Assembly: GCA_002393705.1 (NCBI GenBank) | Contig: DGTH01000033.1 | Span: 578-29,236, forward strand | Origin: Prevotella sp. UBA4341 | Lineage (GTDB): Bacteria; Bacteroidota; Bacteroidia; Bacteroidales; Bacteroidaceae | Direction of reading: 5' to 3' | Length of the DNA: 28,659 bases | In this document: piece by piece, positions 2,342 through 15,215 of the stretch | Numbering within the stretch: the stretch's first letter is position 1 | Layout: each line of letters starts with the position of its first letter | Notes under the pieces: model-generated | The model's database searches: none | Seen by the model: only the letters and a program-made list of their open reading frames with translations | What the model was told of the DNA's origin: nothing | Program-made: the position numbers and the translations under genes

Positions 2342-4099
2342 ATGGCCATGCGTATTTGTAATAAGGGTGTTAGGTGTTGGGTGTTGGGTGTTAGGTGTTG
2401 GGTGCTGGGTGTTAGGTGTTGGGTGTTGGGTGTTAGGTGTTGGGTGCTGGGTGTTGGGTGTTGTGTGTTGGCGCTTATCCCTTTCACGGCCCAGGCTCAG
2501 GTGACGCTGTCGGGAAGCATACAGACCGACATGCTGATACCTCAGACCGACGACGCCATCGGCGCTGTGAAGGAGGAAGACTTCCAGACCAATACCTACG
2601 TTGACCTCCATCTGGGCAGCAAGTATGTCGATGCCGGTGCCCGTCTGGAGTACCTGGAGCACCCGCTGCCCGGTTTCGAGAGCGACTTCAAGGGGTGGGG
2701 CGTGCCTCACTTTTACGTGAAGGGAAAGTTGGAACGTGCAGAGTTGACGCTCGGTACGTTCTACGAGCAGTTCGGTTCAGGCTTCGTGCTGCGTAGCTAC
2801 GAGGAACGCTCCATCGGTGTCGATAACTCTCTGCTCGGTGCCAAGCTCGTGCTGAAGCCCACCGACGGACTGACCATCAAGGCCCTCTCGGGCAAGCAGC
2901 GCCGCTACTGGAAGTGGAACAAGGCCCTCGTCAGCGGTGCCGACGTAGAGGCCGACTTTGGCGAGTGGATTCCCTCTCTGAAGAAGAGCGACACCCACCT
3001 TACCTTGGGCGCCTCGTGGGTCAACCGCTACGAGCAGTCCGACGAGGAGGTCTTTGCCGATGCCACCCACAAGGTTAACTTCCCCAAGTTCGTTAATGCC
3101 TGGGACGTACGCCTCAGTTTCAACAAGGGTCCCTGGAGCGTGCTGGCCGAGTACGCCCAGAAGACGGCCGACCCCTCCTTTGCCAACGGCTACATCTTCC
3201 GCCGGGGTTCGGCAGCCATGATTTCGGGCTCTTATTCCAAGAAGGGACTCAGCATTCTTCTGCAGGCCAAGCGCAGCGAGAACATGTCGTTCAAGAGTAC
3301 CACCCAGACGGCCAAGGCCATCGGCACGTCCTCTTACATCAACCACCTGCCGGCCTTTACCACTGAGCATACTTACGACCTGGCAGCCCTGTACCCCTAC
3401 GCCACGCAGCTGGCCGACGGCGAGTGGGCCTATCAGGCAGAGGTGGGCTACAACTTCAAGCGCAACACCGCGCTGGGCGGACGCTACGGCATGAATGTCA
3501 AGCTGAACTACAGCTACGTGCGGGGCATCAAGCGCGACTTCCAGGGCGGCCAGATACTCAACACCCTGACGGGAACCACCCTGCTGGCCGGAACCGACGG
3601 CTACACCACCTCCTTCTTCGGCTGGGGCGACCATATCAACTATCAGGACCTGAACCTGCAGCTTTCGCGCCGCTTCAGCAAGGCCTTCCGCCTACAGCTC
3701 ATGTATATGAACCAGCGTTATAACGCCCTCGTCATTGAGGGCCATGGCGACATGATGCACAACAACATCCTCGTGGCCGACGCCAAGTACCAGTTCTCGC
3801 CCAAGGTGACGCTGCGCGGCGAGGCACAGTACATGTTCAGCGACGGCCCGGATGGCGACTGGGCCTTTGGCCTGCTGGAGCTCTCGCTCGTGCCCCACTG
3901 GATGATTACCCTGAGCGACGAGTACAACGTGGGCAACCACCTGCACTACTACATGGCACAGCTCACCTTCACCACCGGAGCCCACAACATCATGGCCGGA
4001 TACGGCCGCACCAGCGAGGGCTTCAACTGCTCGGGCGGTGTCTGTCGCTACATTCCGTCGTACAGGGGTTTTACGTTGTCCTATAATTATAACTTCTGA
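2342..4099 (+). CDS. DUF6029-type outer-membrane beta-barrel protein with a repeat-built signal peptide
   Basis: A 585-residue protein. After the signal region the sequence alternates hydrophobic and polar residues with many aromatics (for example LTLGTFYEQFG, LNLQLSRRF, FTLSYNYNF) and ends in Phe, as expected of an outer-membrane barrel; it resembles the Bacteroidales DUF6029 family, whose role is unknown. The signal peptide is unusual: residues 9-43 are encoded by about 14 copies of a 7-bp unit, giving GVRCWVL repeated, followed by a normal-looking cleavage region ending TAQAQ. ATG 2342 directly follows the TAA of the TlpA-like gene; a second in-frame ATG lies at 2348. The Omp28 gene follows after 5 nt. 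Confidence 0.82.
   Translation: MAMRICNKGVRCWVLGVRCWVLGVRCWVLGVRCWVLGVGCCVLALIPFTAQAQVTLSGSIQTDMLIPQTDDAIGAVKEEDFQTNTYVDLHLGSKYVDAGARLEYLEHPLPGFESDFKGWGVPHFYVKGKLERAELTLGTFYEQFGSGFVLRSYEERSIGVDNSLLGAKLVLKPTDGLTIKALSGKQRRYWKWNKALVSGADVEADFGEWIPSLKKSDTHLTLGASWVNRYEQSDEEVFADATHKVNFPKFVNAWDVRLSFNKGPWSVLAEYAQKTADPSFANGYIFRRGSAAMISGSYSKKGLSILLQAKRSENMSFKSTTQTAKAIGTSSYINHLPAFTTEHTYDLAALYPYATQLADGEWAYQAEVGYNFKRNTALGGRYGMNVKLNYSYVRGIKRDFQGGQILNTLTGTTLLAGTDGYTTSFFGWGDHINYQDLNLQLSRRFSKAFRLQLMYMNQRYNALVIEGHGDMMHNNILVADAKYQFSPKVTLRGEAQYMFSDGPDGDWAFGLLELSLVPHWMITLSDEYNVGNHLHYYMAQLTFTTGAHNIMAGYGRTSEGFNCSGGVCRYIPSYRGFTLSYNYNF
2366..2470 (+). repeat. Coding heptanucleotide array, 14-15 units of GGTGTTR
   Basis: Consecutive 7-bp units begin at 2366 and continue every 7 nt to 2464. 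Most are GGTGTTA or GGTGTTG, two are GGTGCTG, and the last is degenerate. Three units make 21 bp, or seven codons (GVRCWVL), so the frame survives any change of three units but not of one or two. One of the three frames contains TAG stops where the A-type unit occurs. The G-rich strand could also form quadruplexes. Confidence 0.95.
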
Positions 4100-4104
4100 A
4101 GCTT

Positions 4105-4947
4105 ATGAAACAATCAGTATATTTTTCCCTCCTCAGGTGTTGGGGGTTGGATGTTAGGTGTTGGGGGTTGGGTGTTAGGTGTTGGATGTTGGGTGTCGGG
4201 TGTTGGCTCATGGCCTCCTGCAGCAACATCAGCGACGACGAACGGCTCATCTACGTCAAACCCGCACAGGTCAGCCGCAGCGTGCTCATAGAGGACTTCA
4301 CCGGTCAGCGCTGCGTCAACTGCCCCAATGCCTCGCAGGAGATTCACCGCCTGCAGGAGCAGTACGGCGCCGACGCCGTCATTGCCGTAGCTATCCACTC
4401 CGGGCCCCTCGGCTTCAAGACCAACGATCGCTTCGTGGGCCTGAAGACCGACGTGGGCGACCTGTACTATAACCACTGGCACCTGGAGTACCAGCCCGTT
4501 GGCATGGTTGACCGCACGGGTGTCTCCGACTTCACGTCGTGGGGTGCCCATGTGCACGACGAGCTCCAGCGGCCGGCTCCCGTCAGCATCACCCTCAGCG
4601 TCGCTGAGGACGCAGGCCGCTACACCGTCAGCGCCACGGTCATAGGCACCGACGGCTCCACCTCGGGCCACCTACAGCTCTGGCTCATCGAGGATGGCGT
4701 CACCGCCTTCCAGCTCATGCCCGACGGCACGCGTCAGGATGACTACCTGCATCAGCACGTCTTCCGCGAAGCCCTCAACGGCACGTGGGGCCAGGAGCTC
4801 AGCGTCCGCGAGGGCGAGACGGCCACGCTCTCAGCCGAACCCTTCACGCCCTCCTTCGACTATAACGCCGACAACCTCTCGGTCGTTGCCTTCGTCTATG
4901 ACGACAGCGGTGTCAAGCAGGTAGCCAAAACCAAGTTAAAACAATAA
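4105..4947 (+). CDS. Omp28-related surface lipoprotein with CxxC motif
   Basis: A 280-residue exported protein. It carries a lipobox-like MASC with the acylated cysteine at residue 39, then an Omp28-type domain beginning SVLIEDFTGQRCVNCPNA with a C70-x-x-C73 pair in a thioredoxin-like context (AVIAVAIHSG follows), and a beta-rich C-terminal part (residues about 150-280). Residues 11-34 of the signal peptide come from a second 7-bp repeat array. Omp28 proteins are Bacteroidetes outer-membrane lipoproteins of unclear role. The gene starts 5 nt after the DUF6029 stop and is followed after 16 nt by a T9SS-type cargo gene. A redox partnership with the TlpA-like protein is inference. Confidence 0.85.
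   Translation: MKQSVYFSLLRCWGLDVRCWGLGVRCWMLGVGCWLMASCSNISDDERLIYVKPAQVSRSVLIEDFTGQRCVNCPNASQEIHRLQEQYGADAVIAVAIHSGPLGFKTNDRFVGLKTDVGDLYYNHWHLEYQPVGMVDRTGVSDFTSWGAHVHDELQRPAPVSITLSVAEDAGRYTVSATVIGTDGSTSGHLQLWLIEDGVTAFQLMPDGTRQDDYLHQHVFREALNGTWGQELSVREGETATLSAEPFTPSFDYNADNLSVVAFVYDDSGVKQVAKTKLKQ
4136..4205 (+). repeat. Second coding heptanucleotide array, 10 units
   Basis: Ten 7-bp units run from 4136 to 4205: GGTGTTG, GGGGTTG, GATGTTA and variants. It is less uniform than the array at 2366-2470 but is read in the same frame relative to the A-ending unit (GTT AGG TGT TGG), giving RCWGLDV-like repeats in the signal peptide. Confidence 0.93.
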
Positions 4948-10786: not shown

Positions 10787-12265
10787 CTATTTGGCGACCC
10801 GATGAATGGCAAAATAGCGGAGGATAGCCCACGAGGAAAGAATAATAAGGTAAAGCAGCAGGACGTGCAGGACGGTGGGCTTCAGACCGCCGATGCTGGC
10901 CGAGGGCAGCGCCGCCACCCAGCGAGTCCACGCGCTGAGCCAGGAGGCCAGCGTGGCCGGAACGCTGATGAGCAGGCTCAGGGCCTGCGGCCACCAGCAG
11001 CAGAGCAGGCTGAAGAACATGGTGTAAAGGATGAGCATGGCCAGGGGGATGCTGACGTAGTTGGCCAACAGGAACCAGGGGCTGAAGCGGCCGAAATGGT
11101 AGGCCACCAGGGGGGCGGTGCCTATTTGGGCTGCTATGCTGACCGTGGTCATGGTGACGAGGAAGGAGGAGTGGGGCAGGCGGGGAACAGACTGAGGAAA
11201 CAGGGGGACAAACAGCAGAATGGCTGCCACCGAGGAGAAGGACAGCTGGAAGCCCACGTCGAAGAGCGAGTAGGGACGGGCAAGCAGCATGAGACCGGCC
11301 GTGAGCACGAGGGTGTTGAGGGGGGCCCGGCCCCGGTTCAGCAGGAGGGCGAGGGCGTAGAGGCTGATCATGGTGGCCGAGCGGACTACGCTGAGCGGCA
11401 TGCCCGCCAGCAGGACGAAGGCCCAGACGGCGGCCAGCAGGAGTAGCTGGCTGAGGCCCTTCAAGCGCCGGCGCGGGAGGAGGCGGGCCAGCAGCATGTA
11501 GATGATGCCGAGGTGCAGGCCGCTGAGGGCTAACAAGTGAGAGGTGCCCGCCGTGGAGAACTGCTCCTTCTGCTCGCGGCTGACGGCCTGCTTGTCGCCT
11601 AAGGCCATGGCGGCCAGGAGGGAGTAGGCCTCGTCTTCGCCGACACGCGCCCTGACCAGCCTGAGCAGGCGGCCCCGCTGCTGGAGAAAGAAGATGCGCA
11701 CCCGGTCAGTCAGGCTGATGCCGCCGGCCTCGAACGAGGCGTGCTGCCAGTCGTCGTACCAGACGAACGCCTCGCCCGCGTAGCCTTGGCACTCCAGGTA
11801 GGTACGATAGCTGCCGTGAACTGAGAGAGGCTTGACGGTGGAGCATATCTCCAGACAGTCGCCTGGGGCGAGCTGACAGCTACGCTCGTCGTTCATCAGT
11901 CGTAACTGAATTTTCCTGCCCGTCCGGCTGAGGAGGGCGTCCATGCTGACGGTTTTTCCACGGGGTGAGGGGTTGGAGGAGACGACGACGTGCCAGTAGC
12001 CCCGCTGCGGGGGCCAGTCGGCGTGGAGCTGCATCTTGTAGTGGGCTGAGAGCAGGTAGCCCAGCATGGTGCAGCAGAGGCAGAGGAGCAGCGACTGGAG
12101 CTTGTGCCAGCGGGAAAGGAAAAAAGCCAGAAGCAGAAAAGCTAATAACAAGCCGCCCACAAGGAGGGGAGGGAGGCCTTCCGGCTCCCTGCCTCCTGTA
12201 ATGCCCAGGGCCAAAGAGACGGTGGGTAGCAGCAGGGGGGCGAGGATGGGCTTAGGGCTCTTCAC
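10787..12265 (-). CDS. ComEC/Rec2-family membrane protein (DNA uptake channel)
   Basis: A 492-residue polytopic inner-membrane protein. Residues about 5-60 are hydrophobic, about 65-185 form the soluble OB-like DUF4131 region, and the rest is the competence domain with several membrane helices, including the typical GTSHLLALSGLHLGIIYMLL and GMPLSVVRSATMISLYAL segments. ComEC carries single-stranded DNA into the cytoplasm during transformation. There is no C-terminal metallo-beta-lactamase domain, as in the shorter members of the family. The first 14 nt overlap the end of uvrA, so translation is probably coupled. Family call is secure; whether this organism is naturally transformable is not shown. 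Confidence 0.88.
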   Translation of the reverse strand: MKSPKPILAPLLLPTVSLALGITGGREPEGLPPLLVGGLLLAFLLLAFFLSRWHKLQSLLLCLCCTMLGYLLSAHYKMQLHADWPPQRGYWHVVVSSNPSPRGKTVSMDALLSRTGRKIQLRLMNDERSCQLAPGDCLEICSTVKPLSVHGSYRTYLECQGYAGEAFVWYDDWQHASFEAGGISLTDRVRIFFLQQRGRLLRLVRARVGEDEAYSLLAAMALGDKQAVSREQKEQFSTAGTSHLLALSGLHLGIIYMLLARLLPRRRLKGLSQLLLLAAVWAFVLLAGMPLSVVRSATMISLYALALLLNRGRAPLNTLVLTAGLMLLARPYSLFDVGFQLSFSSVAAILLFVPLFPQSVPRLPHSSFLVTMTTVSIAAQIGTAPLVAYHFGRFSPWFLLANYVSIPLAMLILYTMFFSLLCCWWPQALSLLISVPATLASWLSAWTRWVAALPSASIGGLKPTVLHVLLLYLIILSSWAILRYFAIHRVAK

Positions 12266-15215
12266 CGTCGTCGGGCATGAGCCGGCCCATGCTGATGAGC
12301 TCCTCCTTGAGGAAGCGGGGCGTGAAGCCCAGGGGGCTGCGGGCTACCTCAAGGGGCGAGCCGGTGGTAAGAACCTGACCGCCCCGGCGTCCGCCTTCGG
12401 GGCCCATGTCGATGATGTGGTCGGCCTGGGCAATGACGTCGAGGTTGTGCTCGATGACGATGACGGTGTTGCCACGGTCAACGAGGCGGCGCAGGACGGA
12501 CATGAGGATGCGGATGTCCTCGAAGTGCAGGCCGGTGGTGGGCTCGTCGAGGATGTAGAGGGTGCGGCCGGTGTCCTTCTTGGAGAGTTCGGCGGCGAGC
12601 TTGACGCGCTGGCTCTCACCGCCGGAGAGGGTGGTGGAGGGCTGCCCGAGCTTGATGTAGCCGAGGCCCACGTCCTGCAGAGTCTTGATGCGACGCAGTA
12701 TGTCGGGCACGGCGGCGAAGAACTCCACGGCCTGGTTGATGGTCATGTCGAGGACGTCGGCAATGCTCTTGCCCTTGTAGCGCACCTCGAGGGTCTCGCG
12801 GTTGTAGCGGCGGCCGTGGCACTCCTCGCAGGGCACGAGGACGTTGGGCAGGAAGTTCATCTCGATGGTCTTATACCCATTGCCCGAGCAGGCCTCGCAG
12901 CGGCCTCCCTTGACGTTGAAGGAGAAGCGGCCGGGCTTGTAGCCGCGAATCTGGGCTTCGGGCAGGTGGACGAAGAGGTTGCGAATGTCGCTGAAGACGC
13001 CGGTGAAGGTGGCGGGGTTGGAGCGCGGCGTGCGGCCAATGGGGCTCTGATCGACGTTGATGACCTTGTCGAGCAGCTCGAGTCCCTCTATGCGTTCGTA
13101 GGGCAGGGGCTGCTTGAGGGCGCGATAGAAGTGGCGGGCCAGGATGGGGTAGAGGGTCTCGTTGATGAGGGTACTCTTGCCGGAGCCGCTGACGCCGGTG
13201 ACGACGATGAGCCGGCCGAGCGGAAACTCGACATTGACGGAGCGCAGGTTGTTGCCGGTGCAGCCCTGGAGGGTGAGGGTTTGAGATTTCTCGCACCTCG
13301 CACCTCGCACCTCGCACTTCGTCTCCTCGCACCCCGCACCTCGCACCTCGCACCTCGTCTCCTCGCACCCCTTCTCGCGGCGCAGGTAGCGGGCGGTGAG
13401 CGTGTCGGCCTGGAGGAGCTGGGCGGGGGTGCCCTGGAAAACGACTTCGCCGCCACGGCGACCGGCACGGGGGCCGATGTCGATGACGTAGTCGGCGGCG
13501 AGCATCATGTCGCGGTCGTGCTCGACCACGATGACCGTATTGCCGATGTCGCGCAGGGCCTTGAGTGAGCGGATGAGGCGTTCGTTGTCGCGCTGGTGCA
13601 GGCCGATGGAGGGCTCGTCGAGAATGTAGAGCACGTTGACGAGCTGGGAGCCTATCTGGGTGGCCAGACGAATGCGCTGGCTCTCGCCGCCGGAGAGGCT
13701 GGCCGTGGGGCGGGAGAGCGAGAGGTAGTCGAGTCCGACCTGCAGGAGGAAGTCGAGCCGGGTGCGTATCTCCTTGAGGATTTCGGCAGAAATCTGCAGC
13801 TGCTGGCTGCTGAGCAGGGGGGCGGGGCCGGCGGTGACACCGTCGAGCCAGAGGCGGAGCTCGGAGAGGTCCATGCCGGCGAGCTGGGCAATGTTCTTGT
13901 CGGCGAAGCGGTAGGAGAGGGCTTCGCGGTTGAGGCGCTGGCCGTGACACTCGGGACAGGTGCAGTCGGCCAGGAACTGGTCGGCCCACTTTTGGGAGGC
14001 GCTGGAGTCGTCGTTCTCGACGACGGAGCGCAGGTACTTGACGACGCCGTCGAAGGAGACGAAGTAGTCGGAAGAGGTATGGACAAGCTCCTTGTCGATG
14101 CGCACGTTCTGCAGCGAGCCATAGAGAATCTCTCCCAGACACTCCTCGGAGAGTTCAGCGACGGGCGTCTTGAGCGTGCAGTCGTAACGGTGCAGAATGG
14201 CGTCAATGTGCCAGAAAATCATCTGCGAGCGATACTTGCCGAGGGGTACGATGGCCCCGTCGTGGATGGAGAGCGAGCGGTTGGGTATGACCTTGGCGAG
14301 GTCTATCTCGCTGACCACGCCGAGGCCCTTGCAGCGGGGGCAGGCCCCCTGGGGCGAGTTGAAGGAGAAGAGGTTGGGTGCGGGGTCGTTATAGGAAATG
14401 CCGGAGGTGGGGCACATGAGGCGGCGCGAGAAGAACTTGCACTCGCTGGTGGCATGGTCCATGATGAGGATGAGGCCGTCGCCCTCCTTCATGGCCGTGT
14501 GGACCGACTTCTTGAGGCGGTCGCTGGCCTCGGTGAGGGGCTCCTCGGGCAGGGAGAGACGGTCGATGACGACCTCGATGTTGTGGTTCTTGTAGCGATC
14601 GACCTTGAGGTCAGGCACGATTTCGCGCAGCTCACCGTCGATGCGCGCGTGGAGGTAACCCTTATGGCGAAGGCTCTCGAAGAGTTCGCGGTAGTGGCCC
14701 TTGCGGCTGCGCACGACGGGGGCCAGCAGGAGGAACCGGCGGCCCCGGTAGTCGCTGAGAATCATCTCGACGACGCGCTCCTCGGTATATTTGACCATGG
14801 GCTCGCCGGTCACGTAGCTGTAGGCACGGCCGGCGCGGGCGTAGAGCAGGCGCAGGAAGTCGTAGATCTCGGTGGTGGTGCCTACGGTGGAGCGGGGGTT
14901 GCGGTTGGTCGTCTTCTGCTCGATGGAGATGACGGGCGAGAGCCCGGTAATCTGGTCAACGTCAGGACGCTCGAGGCCTCCGAGAAAGTTGCGGGCGTAG
15001 GCTGAGAAGGTCTCGATGTAGCGGCGCTGTCCTTCGGCGAAGATGGTGTCGAAGGCCAGCGACGACTTGCCGGAGCCGCTGAGTCCGGTAATGACGGTGA
15101 GCGACTGGCGGGGAATAGAGACGTCGATGTTCTTGAGGTTATGGACGCGTGCGCCGAGCACGACGAGGTCGGCGGCGGCGGTGTGGGGCTTACTGCTCGG
15201 TTGTGCTGCTTCCAT
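12252..15215 (-). CDS. uvrA: UvrABC excinuclease subunit A, with a repeat-encoded linker insertion
   Basis: A 987-residue DNA-damage sensor ATPase of nucleotide excision repair. It shows two ABC modules: Walker [10 protein letters not shown] near residue 43 and GVSGSGKST near 672, and signature motifs [12 protein letters not shown] and [12 protein letters not shown]. The second zinc finger is intact (CEAC then CEEC). The first reads MCPTSG before ACPRCKG, so one cysteine of the usual CPxC pair is Ser, as I believe is common in Bacteroidetes UvrA. The protein is longer than the usual roughly 940 residues; part of the excess is a 27-residue stretch at about 616-642 made of 7-bp DNA repeats ([12 protein letters not shown] twice). 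The start overlaps the preceding gene by 26 nt and the end overlaps the comEC-like gene by 14 nt. Confidence 0.97.
13290..13368 (-). repeat. Heptad array inside uvrA (GGTGCGA type)
   Basis: On the plus strand, CTCGCAC units start at 13290, 13297, 13304 and 13311, then a CTCGTCT-type unit plus one extra base, and the whole motif recurs with a 36-bp period (13318 to 13354, 13326 to 13362). On the uvrA strand the unit is GGTGCGA. Because 36 is 12 codons the insertion keeps the frame and adds repeats of [12 protein letters not shown] between the first nucleotide-binding module and the second. Confidence 0.92.

Follow-up and report, generated by a model that had tools for sequence, protein, structure and literature searches.

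A heptanucleotide repeat dispersed in a Prevotella-type genome lies in frame in unrelated genes and in predicted signal peptides

Introduction

Does an array of 7-bp units at the 5' end of an outer-membrane protein gene denote a phase switch? In contingency loci, a surface-protein gene changes its frame or its expression when the repeat number is not divisible by three, and the linked heptanucleotide repeats of Haemophilus hmw1A are reportedly such a phase-variable locus. The question is raised here by the gene of a DUF6029 protein. It lies in the window, which is the whole stretch of 28,659 nucleotides that was analyzed, from the MAG of a Prevotella-type rumen bacterium (62% complete, 194 contigs). 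The original prediction regarded the units near the start of this gene both as the hydrophobic core of a signal peptide and as a candidate for switching.

In one survey, heptanucleotide repeats reportedly rank first among long simple repeats in the majority of genomes, and the long heptanucleotide simple sequence repeats (SSRs) of prokaryotes are treated with reference to Mrazek et al. 2007 and to arrays of TAACTGA (PMC4679880, accessible part). Quadruplex-forming arrays of GGGNATC are described from Xanthomonas and Nostoc (PMC4692102, accessible part), and the same parts of both papers present heptamer arrays as mainly intergenic or under-represented in coding regions. In the excerpts available, a tree-of-life survey reports a high coding-region repeat density for Bacteroidota (PMC12699852), PMC12871928 surveys how tandem repeats in coding sequence affect the frame, and in-frame insertion of repeats into genes is described for the Rickettsia palindromic elements (PMC10969869).

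A heptanucleotide array in the predicted signal peptide of a DUF6029 protein

The array was detected by Tandem Repeats Finder at 2365-2471 with two periods, 7 (15.3 copies, 86% matches) and 21 (5.1 copies, 93% matches). In register, positions 2366-2470 comprise eight GGTGTTG, four GGTGTTA, two GGTGCTG and one TGTGTTG units, which are codons 9-43 of the ORF 2342-4099 and read as GVRCWVL/GVGCCVL heptapeptides, the hydrophobic strand. About 14 copies of GGTGTTR had been predicted at these codons; the array and its position are confirmed, and the count has to be corrected to 15 units, 12 of which fit GGTGTTR exactly. The A-bearing units are numbers 1, 4, 7 and 10, and this recurrence at every third position makes the array a 21-bp higher-order repeat as well. 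Its lag-7 score, the best of the window, is 62, versus 10 at most when the window was resampled 100 times under a first-order Markov model. The features of the window are listed in Table 1.

Table 1. Genes, heptamer arrays and signal-peptide region in the window, with the evidence for each.
Feature	Position	Strand	Evidence
Heptamer array, 15 units, GGTGTTR type	2366..2470	+	Tandem Repeats Finder and unit list
DUF6029 protein of 585 aa, modelled as an outer-membrane beta-barrel	2342..4099	+	Pfam PF19494, AlphaFold2, Foldseek
Signal-peptide region: n-region MRICNK, repeat-encoded core, ALIPFTAQA, likely cleavage before Q	2348..2500	+	Boundaries by inspection
Second GGTGTTG-type array, in signal peptide of next gene	4136..4206	+	Tandem Repeats Finder
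Omp28-family lipoprotein, 280 aa, array in signal peptide	4105..4947	+	Pfam Omp28 E 1.1e-37; lipobox MASC by inspection
Two arrays of a different heptamer (CTCGCAC/CGAGGTG), in frame in uvrA (12252-15215)	13290..13369	-	Tandem Repeats Finder, lag-7 scan, Pfam UvrA domains

The protein matches Pfam PF19494 in full length (residues 49-585, profile positions 21-538 of 538, E 7.1e-181). The AlphaFold2 model (mean pLDDT 75.1, pTM 0.70) displays many beta strands after a helix at residues 21-44, the confidence of which is low to moderate. The best Foldseek matches of this model are outer-membrane barrels with TM-scores of about 0.2-0.5, which supports the barrel class and no particular relative. Translation may start from ATG 2342 or ATG 2348, and a near-identical public protein, P0003, begins at the residue encoded by the latter.

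Inspection of the N-terminus reveals a charged n-region, a hydrophobic core and an AxA-type site, TAQA before Q, as in a Sec signal peptide cleaved by SPase I. The hydropathy peak of the core, VLGVGCCVLALI, reaches 2.875 (orthologue median 2.70) and sits past the last arginine of the GVRCWVL copies; a shorter allele, one heptad of which is lost, keeps the same peak. The array ends about ten residues before the likely TAQA↓Q site, too few for a signal peptide to remain if translation started downstream of it. The sequence thus supports the predicted role of the array as the hydrophobic core of a putative signal peptide, and speaks against the downstream start that had been allowed for as an objection; the public gene call of P0003 also starts upstream of the array.

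The protein resembles its family in the full-length match and the beta-barrel model, and differs from most of the DUF6029 homologues listed, which have ordinary signal peptides, in having one built of heptads. Inheritance of the array with the family was considered and rejected: of the 69 orthologue loci retrieved, 68 were read at the N-terminus and none of these has the GGTGTTR unit; the other one (L056) was left out of this reading because its sequence begins within the gene. Another period-7 stretch was found in 10 of the 68 loci, from 250 bases upstream to 180 downstream. Among the 120 DUF6029 homologues listed, the threshold for 7-residue repeats was passed by P0003 and P0065 only, and a looser heptad threshold was passed by P0101 (one of 119 listed), an orthologue with a convergent heptad signal peptide. 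In another genome, G050, a convergent signal peptide with the heptads of the own-genome arrays occurs on a different protein (L302).

Two side observations concern the barrel itself. P0065 carries a three-fold SPLTSPS heptad insertion at residues 374-392, in a loop of the barrel. The DUF6029 matches of six genomes (G028, G031, G033, G055, G065 and G080) are split in two and skip roughly residues 395-428 of the query.

A second array, with 78% matches at period 7 and 90% at period 21, lies in the signal peptide of the next gene, which encodes an Omp28-family lipoprotein. The repeat-made core of this lipoprotein is less hydrophobic, with a peak of 1.66 compared with a homologue median of 2.34.

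Dispersal of the heptamer in the genome

A pattern of three units, with up to three mismatches allowed, was found at 329 overlapping places in the own genome, versus 3 for the reversed control. The exact pattern occupies 60 places there and is present in 12 of 149 other genomes of the genus, at no more than 7 places each. Period 7 is also preferred over its neighbours: arrays of this period number 21, versus 0, 0, 2 and 9 for periods 5, 6, 8 and 9, in 868 kb made up of 69 related loci and the window, and in a 351-kb portion of the own genome they number 18, versus 0, 0, 0 and 3. The repeat is a dispersed heptanucleotide SSR, tandem beyond chance and with its unit at many genomic sites. The array is not special to the DUF6029 gene but dispersed across the MAG, where arrays are also found at the ends of contigs C7, C171 and C188. 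Neither a palindrome nor defined ends were detected in the arrays by Tandem Repeats Finder and the lag-7 scan.

Arrays inside genes

In-frame arrays were found in genes assigned by their Pfam domains to threonine synthase (ThrC), DnaX, ParE/GyrB, Mur ligase, Mfd, DnaG, a sulfatase, an acetokinase-family protein, polyprenyl synthetase, TopA and a protein kinase, and also in DNA polymerase III delta'-like and Rho-like proteins. Alignments to solved structures place the inserts of ThrC, TopA, DnaG, ParE/GyrB, polyprenyl synthetase and UvrA at or beside gaps, or between matched blocks. A total of 17 arrays in the own genome are interior to unrelated genes with the frame open through them, according to the automated rule described below. 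In G145, a two-contig assembly, an array is present in a gene that is leucyl-tRNA-synthetase-like by inspection.

Most arrays seemed at first to lie in genes. This was overturned by an unbiased sample of 55 stretches (478 kb), in which 7 of the 30 non-edge period-7 arrays are interior to genes; coding sequence is therefore avoided overall. We also considered an excess of 21-bp identity as a general mark of coding arrays. It is higher in long interior arrays than in others (one-sided p 0.007, 25 versus 23 arrays), and the effect proved modest.

The ParE array was compared in loci from 30 of the genomes with matches. The array in this loop is common to one of the 29 other loci examined (L273), and one ParE array site is common to the own genome and G134. 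L275 and L278 have AACACTCAACA, about 1.5 units, within the same loop, which is perhaps a seed or a remnant of the array.

In threonine synthase, the array site is the loop before VPSGNFG, and this loop varies in length among the homologues P0129-P0242. The same loop contains the heptamer-like strings NTQHLTPNTQ, SPFSIPNSQ and LNSQFSTINSQ in other species.

The strand of the array and the protein context

Seven and three are coprime, so that every frame of a uniform heptamer array yields one and the same heptapeptide. A uniform GGTGTTG array gives GVGCWVL, its complement gives QHPTPNT, and it is stop-free in every frame. Arrays were classified as interior when both 240-bp flanks scored best in one strand and frame and this frame was open through the array, a rule fixed after a table of arrays had been viewed. 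Of the 17 interior arrays in the own genome, 16 are of the hydrophilic strand and one of the hydrophobic strand, and the same numbers were obtained from all 27 places listed for 12 other genomes, with L214 omitted because it overlaps L157.

Combined, 32 of 34 interior arrays are hydrophilic, and both exceptions lie in hydrophobic stretches. The exception in the own genome is in a cytochrome-c assembly protein, and a hydrophobic segment is found at this site in the three orthologues of L135 that a text pattern picked from 20 other loci; the one in the other genomes (L231) precedes a PAQA↓D-like site. By comparison, all four signal-peptide arrays of the own genome (two in the window, L119:1809 and L112:2829, with the context assigned by inspection) are of the hydrophobic strand. 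Strand and context are associated with a Fisher p of 2.0e-4 when both exceptions are counted against the rule, and of 3.6e-7 when they are treated as membrane contexts. A single gene can hold both strands: the signal region of a DUF6377 gene (L112:2591-4723, +) is formed by an array of the hydrophobic strand, and one of the hydrophilic strand starts shortly after. A third array of this gene, of CAACGCT type, encodes TLNAQLS heptads near a coiled-coil-looking region.

The interior rule excluded 25 of 42 arrays of the GGTGTTG family in the own genome and 18 of 35 in the others. On inspection, the 25 comprise 11 hydrophilic arrays in coding sequence, 5 hydrophobic ones (four signal peptides and one at the edge of a contig) and 9 that are intergenic or unclear; for the 18, the hydrophilic coding arrays number 7 and the intergenic or unclear ones 11. 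Only the four signal peptides among them entered the Fisher test, to which 13 further stretches are likewise external. One array with a weak reading in the hydrophobic strand, in the unclear ORF of L200:15849, was given no class in the tally. Many arrays are in frame, with the hydrophobic strand in signal peptides or hydrophobic segments and the hydrophilic strand in soluble parts.

Length variants and the question of phase variation

The number of units varies among relatives, as anticipated. P0003 is identical to the DUF6029 protein at 574 of 576 residues, with two substitutions, and has exactly one GVRCWVL, i.e. three units, fewer. Six threonine synthase records (P0123-P0128, at least 96% identical) have lengths of 475, 461, 461, 454, 454 and 454 aa, and the differences are multiples of seven residues located in the array. 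P0243, which is 93% identical to the Omp28-family lipoprotein, also has exactly one array heptapeptide fewer. All length steps in the three genes searched are multiples of seven aa (21 bp, three units), a pattern partly ascertained since protein collections favour open frames, and one to be read with the caveat that a 21-bp higher-order repeat could collapse in assembly.

A single-unit change was predicted to break the frame, and it does: when the DUF6029 gene loses or gains one unit, the reading runs into a stop at 2502, at 2602 or already inside the array, which would abolish the mature protein, and OFF states are therefore possible. No out-of-frame allele was found among the public protein records, a collection biased against such alleles. 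The repeat is not confined to switchable, dispensable functions, as it is present in ThrC, DnaG, TopA, ParE/GyrB, DnaX, Mfd and Rho. OFF states of DnaG, TopA and ThrC should be costly, which argues against a dedicated switch. The proposal of phase variation is not supported in that form: the steps of 21-bp multiples in three of three genes, together with the arrays in housekeeping ThrC, DnaG, TopA and ParE/GyrB, suggest an array whose length varies in frame under purifying selection, and not one that acts as a dedicated ON/OFF switch.

Discussion

We propose, with a probability of about 0.72, that the array belongs to a dispersed, lineage-specific heptanucleotide family whose strand follows the protein context and whose length variants differ by three units, and that it serves here as a signal peptide without being a dedicated switch. 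The number of units would change by replication slippage or unequal recombination. Products that break the frame or come from the wrong strand would be purged by selection, which in genes would retain changes in threes and the strand whose peptide the site tolerates. In the DUF6029 gene the array appears to have turned into the hydrophobic core of the signal peptide. The functional core is probably the last, arginine-free part of the array plus ALIPFTAQA; the upstream GVRCWVL copies would be largely dispensable, so that the copy number can drift. Any ON/OFF switching would then be rare and incidental to the array.

The family can be compared with known systems. As far as the accessible texts describe them, the heptanucleotide SSRs of prokaryotes likewise have a seven-base unit, in lineage-specific tandem arrays of one unit dispersed in the genome; unlike these mainly intergenic repeats, the present arrays are in frame in housekeeping genes, have the strand matched to the context and form signal peptides. 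In the accessible part of PMC10969869, the Rickettsia palindromic elements are also repeated DNA in frame in unrelated genes, tolerated as peptide insertions; they are, however, defined families of about 150 bp, whereas we describe a plain heptamer tandem of variable length that uses both strands by context. The arrays share with contingency loci a unit that is not divisible by three and can shift the frame of a surface-protein gene, but differ in that the alleles differ by three units and the same heptamer occurs in housekeeping genes. No account of strand-by-context coding heptamers or of heptamer-made signal peptides was found in the literature searched, outside which most subscription papers lie. 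The same search gave no account of heptamer arrays in Prevotella genes, and "Prevotella" and "heptanucleotide" occurred together only in a frameshifting review.

A contingency locus, in which slippage of a single 7-bp unit switches the outer-membrane barrel ON and OFF and selection maintains the switching, would fit a surface protein with an array of variable copy number at its 5' end, where a single-unit change ends translation, and the accessible part of PMC4692102 associates SSRs near the start of genes with phase variation. We consider it unlikely in view of the 21-bp steps, the arrays in housekeeping genes and the recurrence of A-bearing units every 21 bp; that no OFF allele was seen counts in the same direction, within the bias of protein collections. 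Speculative, and of low probability, is the view of the heptamer as a dispersing, template-copied element pre-adapted to coding DNA, with its two strands as membrane-seeking and soluble peptides and thus a source of signal peptides and loops. A heptamer that is stop-free and gives one peptide per strand in every frame could enter genes in any phase.

The strand preference also bears on whether the array acts as a DNA or RNA structure with an incidental peptide. Quadruplexes can arise from G-rich heptamers, and the GGG tract that recurs here with each unit of 7 bases recalls the quadruplex-forming GGGNATC of Xanthomonas and Nostoc (PMC4692102, accessible part); yet the strand tracks the peptide tolerated, the coding sense being C-rich in 32 of 34 interior arrays and G-rich in 4 of 4 signal-peptide arrays, which makes this reading improbable. 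A true start within or downstream of the array, leaving most of it as untranslated leader, would have in-frame GTG and TTG codons inside the repeats at its disposal, but the short distance from the array to the cleavage site, the sole charged n-region MAMRICNK ahead of the repeats and the gene call of P0003 render it very improbable. We give hardly any weight to an assembly artefact of a short-read MAG. The incompleteness and fragmentation of the assembly and the arrays at contig ends would agree with one, and they are opposed by the in-frame arrays in many genes, the recurrence in other genomes including the two-contig G145, the ParE site common to G134 and the separate public protein records that carry arrays.

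The dispersed family is a case of simple repeat DNA made into bacterial protein parts, in core genes as well as export signals, and it provides a natural test of sequence tolerance in signal peptides and protein loops. It also advises caution, as a 7-bp array at the 5' end of a gene need not be a phase switch. It raises the testable question by which route one heptamer reached dozens of unrelated sites in one lineage.

Other repeats in the window and in related loci

Heptamers of other composition were encountered as well. The uvrA arrays of CGAGGTG read as RCEVRGA-type heptads, and their region corresponds to gaps in the alignment to solved UvrA. GA-rich heptamer arrays encode EERGERR-type heptads in frame in a charged protein (L131:13041-13108) and in a tRNA methyltransferase-family, MnmA-like gene (L144:15772-15903). 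The window also contains a 22-bp tandem repeat of GAAGTGCCGTTTCTCCCAGAGA at 1378-1506 (5.9 copies, 95% matches), directly after an AraC-type regulator gene.
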